Virus record (IMG/VR): IMGVR_UViG_3300033233_000072
Span: 1-42,890 of that record
Length of the DNA: 42,890 nt
Source: a virus
Direction: 5' to 3' (one strand)
Part shown: piece by piece, positions 7,738-42,890 of the stretch
Layout: the number at the start of each line of letters is the position of its first letter
Numbering within the stretch: the first letter of the stretch is position 1
Program-made: the position numbers and the translations under genes
The notes under the pieces: model-generated
Databases searched by the model: none
Seen by the model: the letters and a program-made list of their open reading frames with translations, nothing else
Told to the model about the DNA's origin: nothing

Positions 7738-9069
7738 ATGGCTAAACATCCGGCAGTCTCAGGCGAGATCCCTGCGGCGCCTCCCACGCACATCGACGGC
7801 TTCGTGGTCGAGATGTGGCCGCTCGAGCGCATCAAGCGCTACTCGAACAATCCCCGCGTGAACGATGCCGCGGTGCCGAAGGTCGCCAATTCCATACGCG
7901 AGTTCGGCTGGCGACAGGTCATCGTGGTGGACGAGCAGGGGGTCATTGTCGCCGGCGACACGCGCTACTTGGCTGCCAAGCTGCTCCAGCGCAAGGAGGC
8001 GCCGGTCCATGTCGCCCGTGGGCTCACGCCCGACCAGGTGCGCGCCTACCGGCTGGCCGACAACCGCGTCGCGCAGGAGGCCGAGTGGGATGACTCGCGC
8101 CTCATGGCCGAAATCCGCGCGCTGCAGGACGCCTCCTTCCCCGTCGCCCTCACGGGGTTCGATGTGGGGGATCTCGAGGCGCTGTTCGGTGCCGCCCCCG
8201 TGGGCATCCAGCCTCATGCGGATCCCGAGGATCTGCCGGCGGTGCCGAAGGTGCCAACCTCGCGCTTCGGCGACCTGTACGCCCTCGGGCCGCATCGCCT
8301 GCTGTGCGCCGATGCCCAGCGCTCGGATAGCTGGACGCGCCTCATGGCTGGCGAGGTAGCCGATCTTCTCTGGACCGATCCTCCCTACGATGTCGATTAC
8401 CAGGGTGGCACGAAGGAAGGCCTCAAGATCTCGAACGACAACCTCGGGCACGAGGGCACGGTGCGCCTGCTGCGCGCTATCCTAGCGAATGCTCTCATTC
8501 ACCTGAAGGAAGGCGGCGGGGTCTATGTCTGCGCGCCCCACGGGCCGCAATTCTACGCCTTCGCGGTGGTCGGGACCGAGCTCGGGTTCTGGCGGCAGAC
8601 GCTGCTCTGGATCAAGGACTCGTTTGCCTTCGGTCGCTCCGACTACCACTACCGGCACGAGGCGATCCTCACGACCGAGGGCCCAATCACCCAGATGGAG
8701 GTGTCCTCGATCGGCTATGGATGGCGCCCTGGGAAGGCCCACGCATGGTTCGGCGGCCGGAAACATGACACGGGATGGGAGGTAGACCGGCCGCGGGCCA
8801 ACGGGGATCATCCGACCGCGAAGCCGGTGGAGCTCGTCACGCGCGCCATCTTGTCCTCGACGGAGGCAAACCAGCTACTCGTGGATCCCTGCGCTGGAGG
8901 CGGCTCGGCGCTCATCGCAGCCCATCTTTCCGGCCGGCGCGCAAAGGTCATGGAGCTCGATCCTCGGTACGTGGACGCCATCATTGCCCGCTGGCAGGGC
9001 GTCACAGGCCAGCCAGCACAGTTGCTCGAGCGCCTCGAGGCGCCCACAACGAGCGAGGGCGCCCCGTGA
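7738..9069 (+). CDS. ParB-N domain fused to DNA adenine/cytosine-N4 methyltransferase
   Basis: Residues 22-115 form a ParB/Srx-like N-terminal domain with the phosphate-binding box GDTRYLAA at 73-80. The C-terminal part is an amino-methyltransferase: catalytic motif IV DPPY at 214-217 and the SAM-binding motif DPCAGGGSAL at 382-391, the order of the beta class. It transfers methyl groups to adenine N6 or cytosine N4. No restriction gene is adjacent, so it is an orphan enzyme, probably protecting phage DNA from host nucleases. The ParB domain lacks the HTH half needed to bind parS. The gene ends in a hairpin. Confidence 0.88.
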   Translation: MAKHPAVSGEIPAAPPTHIDGFVVEMWPLERIKRYSNNPRVNDAAVPKVANSIREFGWRQVIVVDEQGVIVAGDTRYLAAKLLQRKEAPVHVARGLTPDQVRAYRLADNRVAQEAEWDDSRLMAEIRALQDASFPVALTGFDVGDLEALFGAAPVGIQPHADPEDLPAVPKVPTSRFGDLYALGPHRLLCADAQRSDSWTRLMAGEVADLLWTDPPYDVDYQGGTKEGLKISNDNLGHEGTVRLLRAILANALIHLKEGGGVYVCAPHGPQFYAFAVVGTELGFWRQTLLWIKDSFAFGRSDYHYRHEAILTTEGPITQMEVSSIGYGWRPGKAHAWFGGRKHDTGWEVDRPRANGDHPTAKPVELVTRAILSSTEANQLLVDPCAGGGSALIAAHLSGRRAKVMELDPRYVDAIIARWQGVTGQPAQLLERLEAPTTSEGAP

Positions 9070-31949: not shown

Positions 31950-33113
31950 ATGGGGTTCCGTGGACCGAGTCGGGGGATCGACACATCGGCACTGCTCATG
32001 CCGTTCAACCTCCGGCGGCAGCAGGAGCAGGATGCGCTGGATCTTGCCTTGCAGCAGTCGAACGCGGCGATTCGGGCCTCGAGCGTCATGGGCGAGAGCA
32101 TCGATCGCGACCAGCGGCAACAGGACGCGATCGCGGCGGGGCGTGAGCGCCTCGCGATGGATCCTAGCATCCGGACGGGGGGCCGGCCGTCCGGTCTCAC
32201 GGTCTCGGACTCGCCGGCGCTGCAGCCGAGGACGTTCTCGCGGTATGGCCAGTCGTACACCTTCGATCCGGCGATGGGGGCTGCGGCCGAGGGGGAAGCG
32301 ATGGCGCTCAAGGATACCACGGCGCAGTCGGCGCGCATCGACGCGCTGAAGCGGATCCCTGGCATCACGCCGGCGATGGCGTCGCGCATGGTGTTCGGGC
32401 GCACGGGGCTCGAGGACATCGATGGCGAACAGACCGCGTTGCGCACGGCGCTGGCCGACTACGTGAAGACACCAGGGCGCGACACGGCCGCGCGGGCGGT
32501 GCAGGCAGGGGCGTCGCTCAACCAGTTTCCCGATCGCTTCCTGTCCGGCGAGGCCTCGGTGCCGGTGCGTGGCACGCCCGAGTACATGGCCATGCGGCAG
32601 GCGGAGCTCGATCAGGAAGCCGAGGCGCAGATGCGCCTCCTCGAGTGGACGCTGCCGATGCGCACCGAGGCCAGCGTCATGTCGCGCGCGCCCCAGCGGG
32701 ACCGCCTGAGCAGGGTGGTCGGTCCGAATGGCGAGATCGGGGTCATGAACCTCGACACGCAAGAAGTGGATTGGACGGGCCAGATGGGGGCCAAGCCTCG
32801 CGGATCCTCCATGCTCGACCAGTTGATCGCCCAGCGGGGCACTCCGGTGGCTGGTGCTCCGGTGGGGGTTCCGGTTGGCCAGCCGGTTGCTCCGCCTGCT
32901 GCAGCGCCGGCTGGACGGCCTGCGCCGGCGGCGCCTGTGGCGCCTGTGGCGCCTGCAGGCCGATCGGCAGGGGCGCCGGACACGGACGGCGGAGCCGAGC
33001 GTCAGGCCTTCAGCGAGGCCTACAGGCGATTGCGCGGTCGGGGGATCCGGAATCCGACCCTCGAGCAGGTCAAGGCGGAGATGATGGGAGGAGCGCCGCG
33101 TGGCGACCGCTAG
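31950..33113 (+). CDS. Internal virion-like protein, 387 aa
   Basis: A strong TAGGAGG precedes the ATG. The protein begins with a helical NLRRQQEQDALDLALQQSNAAI section, continues with mixed polar segments and a long helix at 150-260, and has a Pro/Ala/Val-rich linker (residues 295-335, GAPVGVPVGQPVAPP). The C-terminal 45 residues are a folded basic helix (YRRLRGRGIRNPTLEQVKAEMM). It overlaps the giant gene by 14 bases. Second candidate ejection protein. Confidence 0.5.
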   Translation: MGFRGPSRGIDTSALLMPFNLRRQQEQDALDLALQQSNAAIRASSVMGESIDRDQRQQDAIAAGRERLAMDPSIRTGGRPSGLTVSDSPALQPRTFSRYGQSYTFDPAMGAAAEGEAMALKDTTAQSARIDALKRIPGITPAMASRMVFGRTGLEDIDGEQTALRTALADYVKTPGRDTAARAVQAGASLNQFPDRFLSGEASVPVRGTPEYMAMRQAELDQEAEAQMRLLEWTLPMRTEASVMSRAPQRDRLSRVVGPNGEIGVMNLDTQEVDWTGQMGAKPRGSSMLDQLIAQRGTPVAGAPVGVPVGQPVAPPAAAPAGRPAPAAPVAPVAPAGRSAGAPDTDGGAERQAFSEAYRRLRGRGIRNPTLEQVKAEMMGGAPRGDR

Positions 33114-36100
33114 TGATCGGTATGCTGCGTGGCTCGAGGAAGAGCGGCAGCAGGCGGATGCGGACGAGCGCCGTGCACGGAGCGAGAGTCTCCGGCGCCG
33201 GCGCTCGGGGCTGCCGCTGCCGCCGGTCGAACGCGACATGGCGATCGAGGATCCGGATGCCGAGGCGAAGGCCGCGGCGGTCTCGCAGTCGGTAGGCCGG
33301 CCGGCGGTCAGTCGGGCGCCGGTCGCGTTGCCTCCAAGTCGGCGGTGGCCGGCGCCTCCGCCAATGGCGCCGCGCGACGTCACGGTCACCGAGGCGGATC
33401 GGACGGTGCCTGGGCTCAGCCAGTCGTTGCGCAACCAGAACCCCACTGCCGGCGACATGGCCGCCAAGATGACGCTCGGGATGATCACCGAGCATCCCCT
33501 CGAGACGGCTGCTTGGACGGCGGCCACGGCGGTGGCTCCTGAATTCACCATCCCGTTGCGCGCCCTCGAGGTCGGCTATGCCGGCCGCGGGGCGGCAAAG
33601 GTGGGCATGTATGGCGCCAAGAAAGCCAATGAGGCGCTCGGTACCGATGTGCGTCCGTCTCCGTCCTTCGATGTCTCTGGGCCAGAAGCGGCGATGGAGG
33701 GTACCTTCGGCCTGCTCATGGGATCCGGCGCGGCGGAAGGGGTGCTAGCCAGCGAGCGGACGGCAGCCGAAAGTTCGGCGCAGTTCGAGGACGCCCTGCG
33801 AAATGCGCAGGCGCGCTCGGTTCCTTATCGCTGGGCGAAGGCGCAGAATGTGGCCGAGGTCCGTCCGGAGCGGTTGCTCCCCTCGAGCTCTGTGACGAAT
33901 CCAGTACCGACCGAGGGACCGGATGTAGTCGGACCGGCGATCCCCACAGGACCGGAGACCGTGTCCACACGCGACAATCCGTGGGCGCCTCCTGAGCGGA
34001 TGCTGCCGGCGCGGTCGGTCACCACGCCAACACCCACGGCGGGTGAGGATGTGGTAGGTCCTGCCATCCCATCAGGTGCGGTGCCTCCGGATCTCGAGGC
34101 GATGTTCCCTGGCGTGGTGCCGCCGGAGCGTCGGCTTGGTCGCGGGCCGCTGGTCACGCCCTCGCCGGATGAGCCCATGCGGCAGGCGATGCAGTGGGCG
34201 GTCGGGCAGCGGGCCGCGCGTGCGGCGCGCGGAGAGTCCGATTTCGACATGGCCGACTTCGTGGCTCGCCGGCGCGGGGAGCCCACGGCCGCCGAGGTGG
34301 AACGCCAGGCGATGCAGGAGGCGCCGGAAGAGGTGCCGCAGCCGGATGCGCGTCCGGTGCGCAACGCCGAGGGCTACTTCGAGGACGTCAAGACGGGGAG
34401 CGGAGTCTACCGCAAGGTGGACAAGGTCTCGAATGACGGGCTCCTGCGCTACATCGCCGAGCAGGTCGATGACAAACTCGGCACGCACATGAATGCGCGC
34501 TATGGGAACAAGGCGATCACGGACGCGATCACGCGGAAGGTCAACGAGGCAGAGGCCGAGCTTGAGCGCCGCGGCCTGACCACGGATCAGATCTGGGGAC
34601 CGGAGATGGATCGGGTTCGCGCCGAGCGGCAGGCCGCGAAGGCGGCCGATCAGGCGGCCACGGACCAGGGCGTGCTCGGCGAGGATACCTCGTTCGACTT
34701 CGGGCCGCGCGCGGGGGCGACGCGCACGCCGGTCGTGGCGACGTTGGCGGGGGGTGCGGCAGGTGCCGCTGGTGGCGGGGCGATCGGGGATACGCCGGAG
34801 GAACGCCGGCGTAATGCGGCCATTGGGTTTATGGTCGGGGCGGCGGGCGGGGCTGGCGCGAGTGTGCTTTCGGCGCGGCTGGCCGCTCGAGCGCGCATCG
34901 CGGCGCGCGCCAAGTTCCTGCGCGATGGGAGAGAGGGGGCGCGCGCTGCCGGTCTCACTCCGGATTATGGCGAGTCCGTCATCGAGGACGCAATTGCAGG
35001 TCAGCCACGGCGCACAGGGGCGATAGGAGACGTGGAGAAGGTCGGGGGCTCAGGCTCTCCGCTTGGGCAGAACCGAGTGCCAGCCAAGCGGCCTGCGATC
35101 GAGCACGCGGCACCAGAGCTCGGCAACCTCTCCCTCGATCAGCGCGCGCAGAAGTTGTACGAGGATGCGAGCGGGAGCCCGTGGAAGGACGCGTCGGACA
35201 ATGATCGCGCGGCGTTCCTGAAGGAGGCGCAGACGCAGCATGGCGCGGCCACTTTCGGTGGGCGCCTCTACTCGCGCGCGGCGCGTGCGATCAACGATGC
35301 ACCGTTCGCCAAAGGCACGGGCCAGCAGTGGGCAGCAGCGCTGTCAAAGGGCGTGAGCAAGATCGAGCGCGGGGAGGGGCTTGATGCGTTCCTCGCCGAG
35401 AACAAGGACAAGGTGCTCACGCGTGACCAGGTGGCCGAGGTATTCAACCAGCATCGGATCAAGATTGGGGAGGAGGTCTACACGAATCTCTCGGGGGATT
35501 ACGCCGGCAATGATGGTACGCGGTACTACACCTACACCTTGCCTGGTGGCGACAACTACAAGGAGACCATCCTCACGCTCCAGCGTCCGAGGCCAGCGCC
35601 TGGCGCGTCGGAAGAGGCACCGTACCATTCCTCGCACTGGCCGAGCGTCAAGAATCCGTTGGTGCATATCCGGACGAAGGACCGGATCGGTCCGGACGGC
35701 AAGAAGACGCTCTTTGTCGAAGAGCTCCAGTCCGATTGGCACCAGGAGGGTCGCGATAAAGGGTATCGCGTGCCGGCTCCGCCGATCACTCCTGCTGAAC
35801 AAAAGGCCGGCAATGATGCGCTCGGTTCCGTTATAGAGCAGATGAAGGCCGAGGTGCGGATCCGTCATCCGGAATGGAACGCCACGCATCTCGATCAGTT
35901 CGCGCGAGGGGTGCGGCTGACGCTGCCTGACTATGTCGCGGAGGCTGGTCCTGAGGGCGTGCGCCGGTGGGCCACCGCAGGCGATCTTCTTAATATCCAG
36001 GTCAGCGATGCCCAGGCGCAGGCAATCGCGCGCATCTTCCCTAGAGAAAATTGGACCCTCGCTGTTCCGGACGCGCCGTTCAAGAAGACGGACCAGTGGG

Positions 36101-39100
36101 TGGAACTGGGGCTGAAGAAGATTCTTGATGATGCGGTGCGGGGCGGCTACGATCGCGTGGCTTTTGTCACGGGAAAGCAGTCAGCCGACCGTTACAACCT
36201 CGCGCAGTACGTGGACGACCTGCAGTACGATCCGCTGACTGAGCGCTTGGTAGCGTCCAAGAATGGGAACGTCCTTCATGAGGGGAAGTACGACGCGAAG
36301 GCGCTGCCGGATGTCATCGGGAAGGACGCCGCGAAGAGGCTGCTCGAGACGCCGGTGGCTGAGGGGATGGACGTCCATCAGCTGAAGGGCGAGCAGTTGC
36401 AGGTGGGTGGGCAGGGCATGGCCGAGTTCTACGACAAGATAGTGCCGAAGGTGTTGCGCGACTACGCCAAGACGCTCGGGGTCGAGGTCGAGATGAAGCC
36501 CGGCGCGGTCGGTCGGGGTGGACTGGATGCCAAGCGGATCGATGAGATCGGACTTCGCCATTTCGAGACGGATGAAGAGGCGGCGAATGTGCTGTCTGCA
36601 GTCGCGCGCACGATGGAGAGTGGGGACGCGTCAGACTGGCGACATGTGATCACGGCCATGCGGCAGGATATCGCTGCAGGGCATGGCGCTCCTCACGTGT
36701 TCGAGGGTGCGACACTGGAGGGGGTGGCGAAGGCAGAGAAGCTCCTCGAGCAGGCGGACGCAGCAGGCAACGTCACGGACGCGGACCTGCTCCGGCTGGC
36801 GCAGGCGCGGGCACGGGCGGCGGGGGATAAGCAGGCGGCAGAGATCCTAAGCGAAATCCGCGATTACCACACCTCCACGGGAGACGATGCGCGCACGTCC
36901 CTCGAGGCGTGGTTGGATGGGCCGGGCAAGATGGACCCGGAGTTCCAGGACATCGACCATGAGGCGATGCGCTCATACCTCGGCGGGGTCGCGGACCGGC
37001 GCGGGGCGGTGTTTAACCCGGCGTTGAACCATCAGGAGTCCATCACGGAGTTCGCGCGCACCATCTCCGATCCCACTGAGCGGGCAGCGGCGGAGGCGGT
37101 CGGAGCGGCGTTCTACGGGGCGCCACCGGGCTTGACGTGGAATAAGGCGATTGATGTGGCGCGTCATATGGATTTTGACGGCAGGCGCATGGCGGATGAC
37201 GACGTGCTGTGGAACAGCGTAGCGCGGCGCTTTGAGCGTGAGGAGAAGGCACGGCGCGCAGTGGCTGGCGCAGTGGAACGGGCACGCCAGGGGCCGATCA
37301 GCGAGCTCGGGTTGCTAGACGATTTCGTCAAGGCGCTAGGCACCAGACCGGAAGCGTCGATCCTTCGTAGTGGCGCCGCGAGTGCGCGGCGTCGTGGCGG
37401 CGGTATTCTCGATGCGATTGACTTCATCTCCAAGCACGTCCCGCGGGAGGATGCTCAAATGTTCGGCGGCGGTTCGCAGCGCGCCGTACATAGCAATGCG
37501 ATCCGCTGGCTCGAGGATCTCTACTTTGCCAAGAACAGCCAGGTCGAGCCCTGGCTCGAGGGGCCGTCGTTCGATATCATGCCGGAGCTCGCTGCGAAGG
37601 TGAAGGCGGGCCAGCGCCTCGGGTTCGCGACGCCTGATGCGGTCTCGATGGTGGCCGGTGCTGGGGTCGGCGCCGTAGCCGGATCCACGCAGGGCCGGAC
37701 GCCCGAGGAAAGGGAGCGCAACGCCATGCTCGGTGCGGTGGCGGGGGCTGCCGGCGGGGCTGGTGCGGCACGCGTAGTGGGCCGCATGGCTGGCCGTGCC
37801 GCGGTTGCCTCCACGCCGGCGCTCGCAAAGGCCGCCGAGATGGTGGCGTCCGGCGAACGCTCGGCCAAGCGAGGCGTCTCATTCCTCACGAATCCTGAGA
37901 GAGCCTACGTCGATATCGTGGACGAGGCGTATCCGCTGTCGAAGTTCGGGCGGATGTTCGATAAGCAGCACCCTGAGCGGATGGCGGAGACGATCGCGCA
38001 GGGGCAGGGCTGGCGCGGCCAGGCGCTACAGTACTTGGATGATTTCCTCAAGCCCTTACTGCGCAATGTGAAGGGGCGCGAGGCGGATCTTCAAGGGTAC
38101 GCGGTGGCCAAGCGCGAGCAGCAGCTGCGTGCGCAGGGCGCGGCGCCGAAGACTACGATGACCGACGCGGAGATCGCAGCGGCCGTGAAAGACGGCGACG
38201 CGGATCCGGTGTTGCGTGCGGCGCAGGCGAAGCTAACGGATCTCTATCGGGATCTCCTGAAGAAGCGCCTTGATGTGGGCCTGCTCTCGCAGGACCGTTA
38301 CGACGCTATCCTCAAGTCCGAGGACTTCTACACGCCTTTCACGCGCGAGTGGGATGGCGCGATGGCGCCTAGTGGCGGGAACAGCGGCGGCAAGTTCGTT
38401 AACCGCGGCGCGGGGGTGCGCGCGATGGACCGCGAGCAGATGGCGCGCGCCAAGATCACGGATCCGCTCGAGCGCTTCGTGCTCGATGCGACCGACACCT
38501 TCCGGCAGGTGGCCAAGCAGAAGGTCACGAATGTCGTGGGCGATATCGTCGCACAGAATCCCCAGGGAGTGCAGGGGTTGATTCGTGAGGTGCCGACCGG
38601 CACGACGCCGTCGCCCACGGCGCGCGTCGTGGAGCCGATGGTAGGTGGCGTCCGGAAGAAGTACGAGGTGACGTCGCCGGAGCTCTACGATGCCTGGGCG
38701 TCGTTCGATCCGCGCACGATGGGGATTTTCGAGCAGATCGGCAGCTTCTTTAAGCGGGGGCTGCAGGCTGGTGTGACGCTCATGCCGGACTTCGCAGTCG
38801 CGAATCTCACGCGCGACACGGGGCAGGCGGCGATCCAGCAGCCGGCGACGAAGTTGCTCACACGCGCGGCGAAGGGGGCGGCTGCCGGTGCGGCGACGAA
38901 CGTCGCCTTCGGAGACAAGGACCAGTCCGTCGCGCTGCGCGCGCTGATCGGCGCCGGCCTAGGCTCGGGGGCCGCGGCCATCGCGCCGCAGGTCATCAAG
39001 GCGCTCACGGCGGTGAAGTCGATTATCACGAACGACGCGACCTACCAGGACTTCATGCGCTCGGGCGCGGCGACCGATGGCTTCTATCCGCGCAATTCGA

Positions 39101-40395
39101 CGGACGCGCGCAAGGTGCTGGCGAATCTCCGGCGCGATGGCGTGCAGGCGACCGACATTATCAATCCCGCGCGCTGGGTCGATGCGATGCACTACATCGG
39201 CCGCGTCACCGAGCAGGCGACGCGCGTGGCCAAGTTTGCCGAACAGCGGCGCATGGGAATGACCACGGGCAAGGCGGCGCTCGAGGCGCAGGATGTCTCG
39301 CTCCGGTTCGCCAACATCGGCAAGCGCACCAAGAGCATTGCCTCGGTCACGGCCTTCTGGAACGCGAAAGTCCAGGGCTGGGATAAGCTGACGCGGCTAC
39401 TCAAGGATCCCAAGACCGCGGCGGCCGGCATGGCGACGATCACGGCGCCGACGCTGGCGCTGTGGGCGATCAACAAGGAGAACCCCGAGTACTGGGATCG
39501 GCCGCAGTGGGAACGCAACATGTTTTGGCTCATCCCGAAGGCGAGCGGGGGGTTCTATCGCATCGCCAAGCCGTTCGAGATCGGGTTCCTGTTCGCGTCG
39601 CTGCCCGAGCGCCTCGCCGATTTTGCCTACCAGAAATCGAAGGGCGAGGACGCGAACCCTGGCGAGACCTTCCGGTCGGCCGCACTCGACATGGCGAACA
39701 CGACCTTCGAGGGGACGCTCCCGTTGCCCACGGTCGTGGGGCTCGGCATGGAGCAGGCCGCCAACTACGACACCTTCCGTGGACGGCCGATTGTCGGCCG
39801 GCCGGAATTGCCGGCGGAGATGCAGCAGGACGATCGCACATCCTACTTGGCGAAGGCGCTCGGCGAGAAGCTTCATCTGTCTCCCCAGCGCATCGACCAT
39901 GTCGTGCGATCGCTCGGCGGCTCGACGGCGCAGCTGCTCTCCGGCACGATCGACAACGTGGCGCGGCGCGTGGGCGCAGACACGCGCGCCGAGCCGGCGG
40001 ATGCGGTGCCACTGCTCATGCGGCGCTTCGTGACGCAGGATGCGGGCACGACCGATCAGGAACAGGCGGTGCGCCGGCGCTTCGCGACGGCTGATCGGGT
40101 ATACCAGGGCGCGCGGCAACTCGAGCGCGAGGTGCAGGATGCCGGCGCGGATCCGGCGACGCTGCAGGCCTACGTGGATAAGAACATCGAGGTGCTGCGC
40201 GAGCGGGAGCATCTGCAAAAGGTCATGCAAGGGCTGAACGAGATCACAGCGCGACGCAAGGCGCTCCGCAATGATCGACGGCTGGACAAGGAGGCACGGA
40301 GAGAAGAGGCGCGGATCCTGCGGCTTCTCGGTCAGGAACTTGCGCGCGCCGGCATGGGTCCGGCACCACAGGCTACCACGAGGGCTGTGCCATGA
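33100..40395 (+). CDS. Giant polyvalent protein, 2,431 aa
   Basis: GTG start after GGGAGGAG. Order of parts: a basic helical N-terminus; a three-copy repeat beginning at residues 255, 297 and 341 (PERLLP, PERMLP, PERRLG); Gly/Ala-rich zipper 1 (546-600); a conserved domain (about 770-1140) with QSDWHQEGRDKGY, PDAPFKK and GMAEFYDKIVPK blocks, which recur in phage polyvalent proteins; zipper 2 (1516-1567); zipper 3 (1923-1967); and a C-terminal LPD38-type region (about 1887-2303) with PDFAVANLTRD, AMHYIGRVTEQATRV and FWNAKVQGWDK. Such proteins are thought to be injected with the DNA. The zippers could insert into the host membrane during ejection. Confidence 0.75.
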   Translation: MATASDRYAAWLEEERQQADADERRARSESLRRRRSGLPLPPVERDMAIEDPDAEAKAAAVSQSVGRPAVSRAPVALPPSRRWPAPPPMAPRDVTVTEADRTVPGLSQSLRNQNPTAGDMAAKMTLGMITEHPLETAAWTAATAVAPEFTIPLRALEVGYAGRGAAKVGMYGAKKANEALGTDVRPSPSFDVSGPEAAMEGTFGLLMGSGAAEGVLASERTAAESSAQFEDALRNAQARSVPYRWAKAQNVAEVRPERLLPSSSVTNPVPTEGPDVVGPAIPTGPETVSTRDNPWAPPERMLPARSVTTPTPTAGEDVVGPAIPSGAVPPDLEAMFPGVVPPERRLGRGPLVTPSPDEPMRQAMQWAVGQRAARAARGESDFDMADFVARRRGEPTAAEVERQAMQEAPEEVPQPDARPVRNAEGYFEDVKTGSGVYRKVDKVSNDGLLRYIAEQVDDKLGTHMNARYGNKAITDAITRKVNEAEAELERRGLTTDQIWGPEMDRVRAERQAAKAADQAATDQGVLGEDTSFDFGPRAGATRTPVVATLAGGAAGAAGGGAIGDTPEERRRNAAIGFMVGAAGGAGASVLSARLAARARIAARAKFLRDGREGARAAGLTPDYGESVIEDAIAGQPRRTGAIGDVEKVGGSGSPLGQNRVPAKRPAIEHAAPELGNLSLDQRAQKLYEDASGSPWKDASDNDRAAFLKEAQTQHGAATFGGRLYSRAARAINDAPFAKGTGQQWAAALSKGVSKIERGEGLDAFLAENKDKVLTRDQVAEVFNQHRIKIGEEVYTNLSGDYAGNDGTRYYTYTLPGGDNYKETILTLQRPRPAPGASEEAPYHSSHWPSVKNPLVHIRTKDRIGPDGKKTLFVEELQSDWHQEGRDKGYRVPAPPITPAEQKAGNDALGSVIEQMKAEVRIRHPEWNATHLDQFARGVRLTLPDYVAEAGPEGVRRWATAGDLLNIQVSDAQAQAIARIFPRENWTLAVPDAPFKKTDQWVELGLKKILDDAVRGGYDRVAFVTGKQSADRYNLAQYVDDLQYDPLTERLVASKNGNVLHEGKYDAKALPDVIGKDAAKRLLETPVAEGMDVHQLKGEQLQVGGQGMAEFYDKIVPKVLRDYAKTLGVEVEMKPGAVGRGGLDAKRIDEIGLRHFETDEEAANVLSAVARTMESGDASDWRHVITAMRQDIAAGHGAPHVFEGATLEGVAKAEKLLEQADAAGNVTDADLLRLAQARARAAGDKQAAEILSEIRDYHTSTGDDARTSLEAWLDGPGKMDPEFQDIDHEAMRSYLGGVADRRGAVFNPALNHQESITEFARTISDPTERAAAEAVGAAFYGAPPGLTWNKAIDVARHMDFDGRRMADDDVLWNSVARRFEREEKARRAVAGAVERARQGPISELGLLDDFVKALGTRPEASILRSGAASARRRGGGILDAIDFISKHVPREDAQMFGGGSQRAVHSNAIRWLEDLYFAKNSQVEPWLEGPSFDIMPELAAKVKAGQRLGFATPDAVSMVAGAGVGAVAGSTQGRTPEERERNAMLGAVAGAAGGAGAARVVGRMAGRAAVASTPALAKAAEMVASGERSAKRGVSFLTNPERAYVDIVDEAYPLSKFGRMFDKQHPERMAETIAQGQGWRGQALQYLDDFLKPLLRNVKGREADLQGYAVAKREQQLRAQGAAPKTTMTDAEIAAAVKDGDADPVLRAAQAKLTDLYRDLLKKRLDVGLLSQDRYDAILKSEDFYTPFTREWDGAMAPSGGNSGGKFVNRGAGVRAMDREQMARAKITDPLERFVLDATDTFRQVAKQKVTNVVGDIVAQNPQGVQGLIREVPTGTTPSPTARVVEPMVGGVRKKYEVTSPELYDAWASFDPRTMGIFEQIGSFFKRGLQAGVTLMPDFAVANLTRDTGQAAIQQPATKLLTRAAKGAAAGAATNVAFGDKDQSVALRALIGAGLGSGAAAIAPQVIKALTAVKSIITNDATYQDFMRSGAATDGFYPRNSTDARKVLANLRRDGVQATDIINPARWVDAMHYIGRVTEQATRVAKFAEQRRMGMTTGKAALEAQDVSLRFANIGKRTKSIASVTAFWNAKVQGWDKLTRLLKDPKTAAAGMATITAPTLALWAINKENPEYWDRPQWERNMFWLIPKASGGFYRIAKPFEIGFLFASLPERLADFAYQKSKGEDANPGETFRSAALDMANTTFEGTLPLPTVVGLGMEQAANYDTFRGRPIVGRPELPAEMQQDDRTSYLAKALGEKLHLSPQRIDHVVRSLGGSTAQLLSGTIDNVARRVGADTRAEPADAVPLLMRRFVTQDAGTTDQEQAVRRRFATADRVYQGARQLEREVQDAGADPATLQAYVDKNIEVLREREHLQKVMQGLNEITARRKALRNDRRLDKEARREEARILRLLGQELARAGMGPAPQATTRAVP

Positions 40396-40801: not shown

Positions 40802-41166
40802 CGCCCCGTGAGATGGCGGGCTTCCGGCGCGCGAGCGACCTCGCGTGGTACTGGCAGTTGATCCATTTCCTCGGCGCCCCGCTCGTCGATCACTGGCGGG
40901 GGCTGAGCCTCACGCGGGCGATTGCCGTCTTTTGCGCCGTCTGCGTCGGGCATGAAGTGTTCGTGCGCAAGCTGGCGCTGACGTGGATCGACTTCTCGAT
41001 CCTTGTCTTGGCCGTCGGCACGGCGTTCGGGAAGATGACGTATGAGGCGTTCCTCAAGCGCCTCACGCTCGGCGTGGCGGGCGCGCAGACGCAAACAACG
41101 GTGGACGCGACGGTCCGCGAGATACAGGAGCGGCGCGGGAACGGTACGTTTGAGGCGACGCCGTGA
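40798..41166 (+). CDS. Holin candidate, 122 aa
   Basis: I chose the ATG at 40798 because it overlaps the minicistron stop; GTG at 40786 is the alternative. Two membrane spans are likely, AIAVFCAVCVGHEVFV (about 45-60) and IDFSILVLAVGTAFGKMTYEAF (about 68-90), with a possible weak first span at LAWYWQLIHFLGAPLV. The C-terminus is charged. It is coupled to the endolysin gene by GTGA, the usual holin-endolysin order. Holins open the inner membrane at a set time. Confidence 0.6.
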   Translation: MTPREMAGFRRASDLAWYWQLIHFLGAPLVDHWRGLSLTRAIAVFCAVCVGHEVFVRKLALTWIDFSILVLAVGTAFGKMTYEAFLKRLTLGVAGAQTQTTVDATVREIQERRGNGTFEATP

Positions 41167-41660
41167 ATCTGAGTGCGCTCGATCTGGTGATCCGCGTCAG
41201 TCGTGCGACGGCCGGCGCCTGCGAAGTCCCAGCGGGCTCCAATGCGGGGCCTTATGTCGAGCGCATCCAGCGGTTGACGGGCCTGAAGAAGGGCGATCCC
41301 TGGTGCGCCTGCGAGGTGCGGAATGTCGGCTACTCGGCGCTCGGTCCGTTGTGGCCGGTGCCGGCGATCGGTGGGTGCCAGTACCTCTCGGAATGGGCGG
41401 CCGAACATGGGATTCTCGAAACGCTGCCGGCGATCGGCGACATCTTCCTGCTGTGGGAGAAGGTCGGCGGCACCTATCGCTTCGCGCACACGGGGTTCAT
41501 CATCGGACAGGTGACGGCCGCCGGCTGGCCGACGCATGAGGGCAATACCTCCGGCGGGGGATCGCGAGAGGGCTGGCTCGTGGCCGAGCGCACGCGGCTG
41601 TTCAAGGCAGAGGATCGATTTGTGCGGTGGGTAAACCTCTTGAAAAATGGAGATCACTGA
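41163..41660 (+). CDS. Endolysin, CHAP-like peptidoglycan hydrolase
   Basis: GTG start in GTGA overlap. The pattern fits CHAP-type hydrolases: Cys48 in DPWCACEV at the start of a helix, PAIGDIFLLW as the strand before the catalytic site, His109 in FAHTGFIIG, and EGNTS (Glu126, Asn128) as the third part. Such enzymes cut peptidoglycan as amidase or endopeptidase. At 165 residues it is a single domain with no cell-wall-binding module, which is normal for phages of Gram-negative hosts. There is no signal peptide, so export by the holin is needed. Confidence 0.75.
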   Translation: MNLSALDLVIRVSRATAGACEVPAGSNAGPYVERIQRLTGLKKGDPWCACEVRNVGYSALGPLWPVPAIGGCQYLSEWAAEHGILETLPAIGDIFLLWEKVGGTYRFAHTGFIIGQVTAAGWPTHEGNTSGGGSREGWLVAERTRLFKAEDRFVRWVNLLKNGDH

Positions 41661-41722
41661 TGCTGCTCATCTTCGGGTACATCGTGCTGGCGCTCCAGGT
41701 GGCTGGTGAGGCATGGCGATGA
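41660..41722 (+). CDS. Hydrophobic minicistron, 20 codons
   Basis: It begins in TGATG with the endolysin stop and ends in ATGA with the spanin-like gene at 41719. The peptide LLIFGYIVLALQVAGEAW could span or lie on a membrane. It may be a true micropeptide of the lysis cassette or a ribosome bridge. Confidence 0.4.
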   Translation: MLLIFGYIVLALQVAGEAWR

Positions 41723-42384
41723 CCAGACTTCTCGCGTTGCTTCGCCGACTGCCGCTCGTAGTCTATCTCGTGGCCGGTGCGGTGGTGCTCGCCGGCGGCT
41801 GGCTGGCGTTGAATAATGCGCACCAGCGGGAATTGGGGGCGCTCGAGGCGACGCAGAAGGTCAAGCAGGCCGCGGCCGATAGCGCCGTGCAGGCTCTCGC
41901 GCGCCGGAACCAGCGCCTAGACTCAATGGTCAGGGATGCCGCGGCGGTGGCCGCGCGCGCGCAGGCAGCGAAGCACGCCTCCGACGTCCAGTCGGCGAAG
42001 TTGCAGACTGCCCGCGATTCGCTGGCGCAGGCCATTGCGGATTCCCTCGCGACGATTGAGCAGTTGCGCGCGCGCGCCGAGCGGATGATCGCGGCCAGCG
42101 ACTCGGCCGAGCAGGCGCACGCCCTGGAGCGGGTCAGGGCGGACTCGAGCCTCAAGGCGACCAAGCGGGCGCTAACCTTCGCGGTGGACTCGGTGCGCGC
42201 CGCCGGCCAACACGCCCTTGACCGGATGCGGGAGCGCGCGGAAGCGGCGGAGAAGCTGCAGGCGGTGGCGCGCGCGGGCTGGCTGAGTCGCTGTGGCGTG
42301 ATCGGCGGGTACGGGGGGGTGTTGGCAGGGGGAGCGGTCAAGACCGGTCCCACGGTCAGCCTGGGGTGCCGGCTGTTCCCTTGA
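41719..42384 (+). CDS. Spanin-like membrane coiled-coil protein, 221 aa
   Basis: I chose the ATG at 41719, 7 bases after GAGG and overlapping the previous stop; the ATG at 41713 adds two residues. Residues 10-31 form a membrane span (PLVVYLVAGAVVLAGGWLAL). Residues 35-190 are a long Ala/Arg-rich coiled coil (QLRARAERMIAASDSAEQA). The last 30 residues are glycine-rich and beta-like, with cysteines in SRCGV and LGCRLFP. This fits the inner-membrane part of a spanin (Rz-like), which disrupts the outer membrane. No separate lipoprotein partner is seen. Confidence 0.6.
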   Translation: MTRLLALLRRLPLVVYLVAGAVVLAGGWLALNNAHQRELGALEATQKVKQAAADSAVQALARRNQRLDSMVRDAAAVAARAQAAKHASDVQSAKLQTARDSLAQAIADSLATIEQLRARAERMIAASDSAEQAHALERVRADSSLKATKRALTFAVDSVRAAGQHALDRMRERAEAAEKLQAVARAGWLSRCGVIGGYGGVLAGGAVKTGPTVSLGCRLFP

Positions 42385-42422
42385 CGAAAAGCGCCGACAC
42401 ACATAGGATAGGGATGCATGAT

Positions 42423-42438
42423 CGGCTTGGGGAAGCCG
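42423..42438. other. Short hairpin in the gap after the lysis genes
   Basis: CGGCTT and AAGCCG form a perfect 6-bp stem with a GGGG loop, followed by a purine-rich run on the + strand. No U-tract. The stretch 42385-42511 holds no convincing gene: two overlapping frames of 27 codons (42414) and 38 codons (42418) exist, but the latter runs into the tRNA. Confidence 0.35.
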
Positions 42439-42511
42439 AAAGGGAAAGGAGGGCGCCATCAGTTATCGGCATGGCTGGTGGCGTCGCCTCCCCCTAAATT
42501 TCCGATAGTGA

Positions 42512-42585
42512 CGCGGGATGGCGCAGTCTGGTAGCGCGGTCGGCTCATAACCGACAGGTCGCGGGTTCGAATCCCGCTCCCGCAA
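42512..42585 (+). tRNA. tRNA-Met(CAU), initiator-like
   Basis: A full cloverleaf can be drawn. The acceptor stem CGCGGGA/TCCCGCA has a C1-A72 mismatch. The D-arm is GCGC/GCGC with loop AGTCTGGTA, the anticodon stem GTCGG/CCGAC with loop CTCATAA (anticodon 42546-42548), the variable loop AGGTC, and the T-arm GCGGG/CCCGC with loop TTCGAAT. A73 follows; CCA is not encoded. C1-A72 and G-C-rich pairs 29-31/39-41 are marks of bacterial initiator tRNA. The D-stem C11-G24 and the C29-G41 pair are not the E. coli initiator form. So it is initiator-like but mosaic. Confidence 0.92.
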
Positions 42586-42598
42586 TGCACACACGACC

Positions 42599-42645
42599 GC
42601 TCGGGTGCGGTGATGTCGGTGCACCGACTCGGTGCCCACTCGAGC
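42599..42645 (+). other. Two-part stem-loop downstream of the tRNA
   Basis: GCTCGGGTG (42599-42607) pairs with CACTCGAGC (42637-42645) over 9 bp with one G-T. Enclosed within, GCACCG (42621-42626) and CGGTGC (42630-42635) form a perfect hairpin with a 3-base loop. This branched element follows the tRNA by 13 bases and precedes the terminator hairpin, so it may be a small RNA or a processing signal for the tRNA transcript. Confidence 0.45.
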
Positions 42646-42647
42646 CG

Positions 42648-42686
42648 ATCCCTCAGTCCTTCGGGGCTGGGGGATTCGTGCTTTCT
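42648..42686 (+). terminator. UUCG-capped intrinsic terminator-like hairpin
   Basis: Stem 42648-42659 (ATCCCTCAGTCC) pairs fully, with two G-T pairs, with 42664-42675 (GGGCTGGGGGAT). The loop is TTCG closed by C-G, a very stable tetraloop. A moderately T-rich tract (TTCGTGCTTTCT) follows. It would end late transcription just before the early promoter at 42691. Confidence 0.7.
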
Positions 42687-42690
42687 GGAC

Positions 42691-42718
42691 TTGACATTTT
42701 TCTGGAAAGGTGTAACAT
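42691..42718 (+). promoter_or_regulatory. Early promoter of the HTH regulator, probable leaderless start
   Basis: TTGACA (42691-42696), a 16-base spacer and TAACAT (42713-42718). The expected start falls at or next to the ATG at 42725, and no proper ribosome binding site precedes that ATG, so the regulator mRNA is probably leaderless. The AAGGTGTAA block ending in the -10 recurs at the same place in the minus-strand promoter at 9454-9427. It is the best promoter in the window. Confidence 0.7.
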
Positions 42719-42724
42719 GGGGTC

Positions 42725-42890
42725 ATGCCGAAGCTCCTTTCCCCTGAAGACGTACTAGTCCGCATTGAGGCCGCTGTGCAGGCGGCGGGGTCTGCGCGAA
42801 AGCTGTGCAAGCAGTGGGGGGTGTTTGATTCCCACCTCTCCGCCGTGCGCCACGGTCGCATGAATCCCGACCCGAAGATGCTCGAAGCGA
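42725..42890 (+). CDS. XRE/Cro-like HTH regulator, N-terminal part (continues at 1)
   Basis: The gene starts with ATG (MPKLLSPEDVLVRIEAAVQAAG) and runs off the end; positions 42764-42890 repeat 1-127, so the rest is read from position 128 to 180. The whole product is 72 residues. N-terminal helix 1, then ARKLCKQWGV and SHLSAVRHGR as the helix-turn-helix. It is transcribed from the promoter at 42691. Confidence 0.8.
   Translation, partial: MPKLLSPEDVLVRIEAAVQAAGSARKLCKQWGVFDSHLSAVRHGRMNPDPKMLEA
42764..42890. repeat. Terminal direct repeat, right copy
   Basis: Identical to positions 1-127; it should be removed once when closing the circle. Confidence 0.95.

Follow-up and report, generated by a model that had tools for sequence, protein, structure and literature searches.

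A phage-encoded initiator-type tRNA-CAU with an open 1-72 position and a flipped 29-41 pair recurring across phages

The unpaired 1-72 position is the formylation mark of initiator tRNA, and the 1-72 mismatch serves formylation together with pairs 2-71, 3-70 and 11-24 (PMC11231383). On the ribosome, the 16S rRNA residues A1339 and G1338 contact the initiator tRNA pairs 30-40 and 29-41, respectively, and swapping 30-40 weakens start-codon discrimination, including that against CUG starts (PMC11497404). In E. coli, pairs 11-24 and 29-41 are each reported to contribute to formylation or initiation (PMC11231383, PMC11497404). Initiator tRNA is also attacked by nucleases of the VapC type, which cut tRNAfMet between the anticodon stem and the loop (PMC8522696). 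The carriage of tRNAs by phages is a long-standing puzzle, and codon compensation hardly explains an initiator tRNA.

Phages at large commonly carry initiator-type tRNAs. Those of the isolated phages R6L, ZS04, CcrColossus, CcrSC, DoCa5 and RHph_TM30 carry the CAU anticodon and lie inside the phage genomes, where such copies are either left unannotated or labelled tRNA-Met, in one case tRNA-fMet. In Synechococcus phage S-PM2 (AJ630128.1), a short CDS named "putative ATPase" at 164777-164920 overlaps an initiator-type tRNA and may be spurious; a second S-PM2 record has a tRNA-Met annotated at that place.

In this study, we analysed a phage sequence of 42,890 nt (the window), which contains a single tRNA gene. 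ARAGORN and Rfam RF00005 agreed on a tRNA with a CAU anticodon and on its limits at exactly 42512-42585 (+), with an RF00005 score of 66.9 bits (E 1.5e-12), a match far beyond chance. The results showed that the cloverleaf is fully paired apart from 1-72. The acceptor stem has C1xA72 as its sole unpaired position and A73 as discriminator, the D-stem pair 11-24 is C11-G24, and the anticodon stem consists of G27-C43, U28-A42, C29-G41, G30-C40 and G31-C39 around the loop CUCAUAA. CCA is not encoded, and UGC directly follows A73. These results confirmed the features named by the sequence-only reading of this DNA, namely a tRNA(CAU) with the C1-A72 mismatch, C11-G24 and an inverted 29-41 pair, all of which were present according to ARAGORN, Rfam and the parsed base pairs. 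Measured against the features expected of an initiator, the tRNA has the CAU anticodon, an intact tRNA fold and no strong Watson-Crick pair at 1-72; it departs from the triple G29-C41, G30-C40 and G31-C39 at 29-41, and from A11-U24 (purine 11, pyrimidine 24) at 11-24.

We then compared the window tRNA with E. coli tRNAs. It was identical to the initiator metZ at 63/74 positions, to the elongator Met tRNA metT at 51/74 and to the Ile2 tRNA ileX at 47/74. The likeness to metZ covers C1xA72, A73, acceptor pairs 2-71 to 6-67, G30-C40, G31-C39 and the loop, whereas metZ has A11-U24 and G29-C41 in place of C11-G24 and C29-G41, and the window tRNA is phage-borne and lacks an encoded CCA. With metT it shares the CAU anticodon, C11-G24 and a pyrimidine 29 with a purine 41 (Y29-R41; U29-A41 in metT), but metT has a paired 1-72, C30-G40 and A31-U39. 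The sequence-only reading had named elongator Met or Ile2 identity as the outcome that would speak against an initiator. Such a tRNA should combine a paired 1-72 with close similarity to its class, and neither identity was supported, given the lower similarities and the open 1-72. Read with the cited work on formylation and 16S contacts, the window tRNA therefore carries the mark for formylation and an unchanged P-site pair 30-40, whereas its secondary formylation and G1338 contacts are altered. Cellular alphaproteobacterial initiators have A29-U41, that is, they are also without G29-C41; the G-C triple is therefore not universal, and it is the inverted orientation of 29-41 that distinguishes the window tRNA.

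The two ends of the window carry an exact 127-bp repeat, indicating a phage genome of 42.9 kb that was assembled as a circle. Its recognisable genes are those for terminase, portal, capsid, methyltransferase and endolysin, and the terminases of known phages were at most 35% identical to its own among the matches listed. The tRNA is bordered by the lysis region on one side and a small regulator-like ORF on the other (Table 1). The coiled-coil ORF upstream had no match in PHROG or Pfam. Shine-Dalgarno-like 4-mers precede 16/37 longest-start window ORFs, compared with 17% of random windows. These figures, like the start-codon statistics of the window, are uninformative on the roles that the sequence-only reading had put forward, namely boosted initiation, support for GTG or leaderless starts, or substitution for a host tRNA lost to defence. 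The largest ORF (2431 aa, window 33100-40395) probably encodes a multidomain virion protein, and window 7738-9069 encodes a DNA methyltransferase fused to a ParB-like nuclease domain.

Table 1. Features at and around the tRNA gene, in window coordinates
Feature	Position	Strand	Evidence or remark
Endolysin gene (lysis region), upstream of tRNA	41163..41660	+	phrog_9589
Coiled-coil ORF, family unassigned, possible spanin or tail component	41713..42384	+	ends at promoter-like site
Promoter-like TTGACG-17-TAGGAT, which overlaps the upstream gene's stop codon	42381..42409	+	consensus scan
Structured 5' leader, two hairpins	42411..42511	+	folding, pair comparison with G001
Initiator-type tRNA-CAU	42512..42585	+	ARAGORN, Rfam RF00005, parsed base pairs
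Structured 3' trailer with two long hairpins, of which the second resembles a terminator	42586..42690	+	folding
Strong terminator-like hairpin	42647-42676	+	consensus scan
Promoter-like site of regulator-like ORF, TTGACA-16-TAACAT	42691-42718	+	promoter consensus scan
Start of small regulator-like ORF, downstream of tRNA, crossing the circular join	42725..42890	+	sequence, end repeat

One relative, IMGVR_UViG_3300034080_000021 (G001), was found, with a terminase 76% and a capsid 81-85% identical to those of the window phage. The two phages have the 127-bp end repeat in common, and G001 has its own tRNA-CAU in the corresponding position, with C1xC72, A-U at 11-24 and the anticodon stem C27-G43, U28-A42, A29-U41, G30-C40 and A31-U39. 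The open 1-72 is thus retained between the two phages despite changed bases and a changed anticodon stem. Because the rest of the window cloverleaf is paired and the syntenic tRNA is also open at 1-72 with other bases, there is little sign that the mismatch reflects decay. Of the three anticodon-stem G-C pairs, the G001 tRNA has only one; an efficient initiator would rarely be built in this way, which counts against a working initiator at this locus. Searches of IMG/VR with the terminase or the major capsid protein gave no relatives besides G001, and the endolysin relatives of the window phage had no matching tRNA.

The promoter consensus scan of the window stretch returned 2 sites of such type, with 0.0 expected; the promoter and terminator assigned to the tRNA are consensus matches. 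At the position equivalent by alignment to the window's TTGACG, G001 has TTGACA. The fold z of the leader was -3.4 in the window and -1.9 in G001, and each of its two hairpins showed one compensatory pair change between the two genomes. For the trailer, fold z was -3.8 and -3.7, and a similar shape was found in G001. These results from two genomes only give modest support to a conserved transcript around the tRNA, in which the leader and trailer may signal processing or may constitute a small RNA of their own. In Rfam, the tRNA alone scored above gathering score in this region, the weak plastid and lncRNA matches being antisense or chance; a known structured RNA around the tRNA was ruled out on this ground. 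The structured leader and trailer shape is shared with the related phage (L009:1386-1484, 1565-1710), and no Rfam family fits it.

We searched for further tRNAs of this kind with a pattern that required C1, C11-G24 and CAU and left 29-41 and 30-40 free. It matched 13 contigs in IMG/VR and only 4 loci in a set of 84,980 genomes of bacteria and archaea. Two of the genomic loci (L149 and L151) lie in prophages with terminase and portal genes, and one (L148) lies among phage-like replication genes. The fourth (L150) looks cellular, adjoins a histidine kinase gene and has the three canonical G-C pairs, indicating that C11-G24 by itself is not strictly phage-only. This C11-G24 initiator with canonical G29-C41 (CAMAXZ010000023.1) comes from a MAG titled Klebsiella pneumoniae; the title looks wrong because the genomes of its phylum have D-loop CCAGG initiators and large fragmented assemblies. 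Y29-R41 was present in 8/14 distinct tRNAs of the two C11-G24 scans, compared with 3/118 A11-U24 controls (p 2e-7, a guide only because the sequences are related). The cellular control matches listed begin GAGC, which gives A11, except the G010 copy. The tRNAs of Erythrobacter phages R6L and ZS04, which are unannotated there, share C1xA72, C11-G24 and C29-G41 with the window tRNA at 89-90% identity, and the initiator-type tRNA-CAU of Rhizobium phage RHph_TM30 has C11-G24 but A29-U41.

The flipped 29-41 pair was examined with a second pattern, in which an initiator-type D-arm and loop were combined with a pyrimidine at 29 and a purine at 41. The results showed such tRNAs, with U-A or C-G at 29-41, in at least 119 IMG/VR stretches; D-loop length was fixed in the patterns, so the phage and cellular counts are lower bounds. 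Cellular sampling covered two groups with 573 genomes, in which Y29-R41 occurred in 1/289 (class of G009; a prophage copy) and 0/284 (phylum of G010), compared with 171/289 and 45/58 for the R29-Y41 control pattern. Phyllobacterium endophyticum has both forms in the same genome, with three host-type initiators (A11-U24, A29-U41) and one prophage copy (C11-G24, U29-A41). Among the matches listed, 18/116 parsed Y29-R41 copies lay within 1 kb of a contig end, as did 4/81 when only contigs of 15 kb or longer were counted. U29-A41 also occurs together with A11-U24 in reference phages of Caulobacter, Xanthomonas and Streptococcus, and the initiator-type tRNAs of Caulobacter phages CcrColossus and CcrSC and Xanthomonas phage DoCa5 have 29-41 flipped like the window tRNA. 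Unlike the window tRNA, some isolated-phage copies have U1-A72 with A11-U24, and some lie within large tRNA sets. Several large phages retain R29-Y41, and the flip is not universal among phage initiators. The inverted pair had been noted before at this locus, and its recurrence as a phage trait is added here; the literature considered comprised open-licence PMC papers, and an earlier description of the flipped class is possible.

Position 1-72 was paired in 29/92 distinct Y29-R41 phage tRNAs among the matches listed, 22 of them with a weak U-A, and the unpaired combinations included GA, CA, AC, AA, UC and UU. Pairs 3-70 to 7-66 were standard in 86-92 of the 92 and 2-71 in 73/92. U-A was the preferred flipped form (89/92 within the Y-R pattern), and the outer pairs 27-43 and 28-42 varied freely; pairs 30-40, 31-39 and most of the D-arm were set by the search pattern and are uninformative within the 92. 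The letters at 1-72 drift while a strong pair is avoided, as would be expected under selection for formylation and initiator identity.

Taken together, the window gene is probably a working phage initiator (formylmethionine) tRNA in its own short transcription unit with a structured leader and trailer, and it is best read as a member of a recurrent phage variant with an altered P-site contact pair. The sequence-only reading had suggested a phage-encoded initiator; phage encoding and initiator type were borne out by the circular phage genome, the syntenic copy, metZ as the closest tRNA and the retained open 1-72, and function as an initiator is the part that stays probable. The sequence, structure, synteny, phage location, recurrence and rarity in the sampled cells are direct results; expression, charging, formylation and P-site use are inferred and would proceed as follows. 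The host would mature the tRNA and add CCA, and would charge it with Met by virtue of the CAU anticodon and A73; the tRNA would be formylated because 1-72 is unpaired and, in the infected cell, would act as an initiator by entering the ribosomal P site. The variant retains G30-C40 and G31-C39 with the G1338-contacted pair 29-41 flipped to pyrimidine-purine, and a subset that includes the window tRNA has C-G instead of A-U at 11-24. The elongator state of 11-24 and 29-41 and the CCA that is not encoded count against a working initiator.

An elongator state at two positions would fit a hybrid or elongator tRNA serving internal Met codons, or starts and internal codons alike, since both pairs are in the state of E. 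coli metT and 22/92 related phage tRNAs among the matches listed have the weak U1-A72. We consider this quite improbable: C1xA72, A73, G30-C40 and G31-C39 are retained, the similarity to elongator Met and Ile2 is low, and Y29-R41 phage tRNAs avoid a strong 1-72 pair. The sequence-only reading had also raised the relic of a host tRNA, serving for attachment, which a temperate phage would have acquired. Prophages often integrate at host initiator genes, and 90/118 host-type copies in IMG/VR lay within 1 kb of a contig end, as expected if host tRNAs flank prophages (this control set consists of the first broad pattern's matches, mostly host initiators at prophage ends). An attachment-site tRNA should come with a phage integrase and be identical, in full or as a fragment, to a host gene at the prophage end. 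No match to tyrosine integrase (PF00589) or serine resolvase (PF00239) was detected in the window phage or G001, the cloverleaf is intact with promoter- and terminator-like sites of its own, the syntenic unit has conserved structure in G001, and C1 + C11-G24, a combination seen rarely if ever in cellular initiators, gave four loci in the 84,980 genomes, three of which are prophage or phage-like. These results leave a relic very improbable.

For the working initiator, the flip may serve either to tune P-site or start-codon checking or to escape a host nuclease that recognises the initiator anticodon stem, each a special case of that explanation. Under tuning, the altered G1338 pair would relax or shift start-site checking and favour phage messages, re-initiation or non-AUG starts. 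The 16S contacts to 30-40 and 29-41 and the lower discrimination against CUG starts after the 30-40 swap (PMC11497404) are consistent with this, as are a directional flip confined to 29-41 while the outer stem pairs vary freely and its occurrence in phages of unrelated hosts, but the known effect concerns 30-40 and not 29-41; we regard tuning as possible though rather unlikely. Under escape, the host initiator would be destroyed, for example by a VapC-type nuclease, and the altered stem would leave the phage copy uncut. VapC toxins of several bacteria, including the alphaproteobacterium Bosea, cut the initiator tRNA anticodon stem-loop (PMC8522696), and phage tRNAs have been proposed to be nuclease-resistant through anticodon-loop mutations (PMC10264068). 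The window tRNA resembles those in having an anticodon arm unlike that of the host form, with the stem pair 29-41 changed rather than the loop. Phages generally avoid tRNA-fMet where VapC targets it, a case described for Shigella (PMC10264068), which argues against escape. We weigh tuning slightly above VapC escape, which we consider unlikely, because neither the loop nor the cut-adjacent pairs 30-40 and 31-39 are changed and because the flip favours a single form where escape would suggest a variety of changes.

A tentative generalisation, falling somewhat short of probable, is that many phage lineages carry a distinct phage-specific initiator class with 1-72 open or weak and 29-41 (sometimes 11-24) flipped, altering start-site checking or evading initiator-destroying defences. 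If true, translation initiation would be a testable target of takeover or counter-defence, through a single base pair that G1338 of 16S rRNA is known to contact. The assays for this are established, and isolated phages of Erythrobacter, Caulobacter and Xanthomonas suit testing of the phage-initiator idea.

In a Phyllobacterium calauticae prophage (L151, L293), a C11-G24/U29-A41 initiator-type tRNA was found near terminase and portal genes. It is flanked by an AbiJ-domain gene (AbiJ_NTD4 + DUF7014) on one side and by a gene for an AAA ATPase, putatively of the AbiEii/OLD type, on the other.
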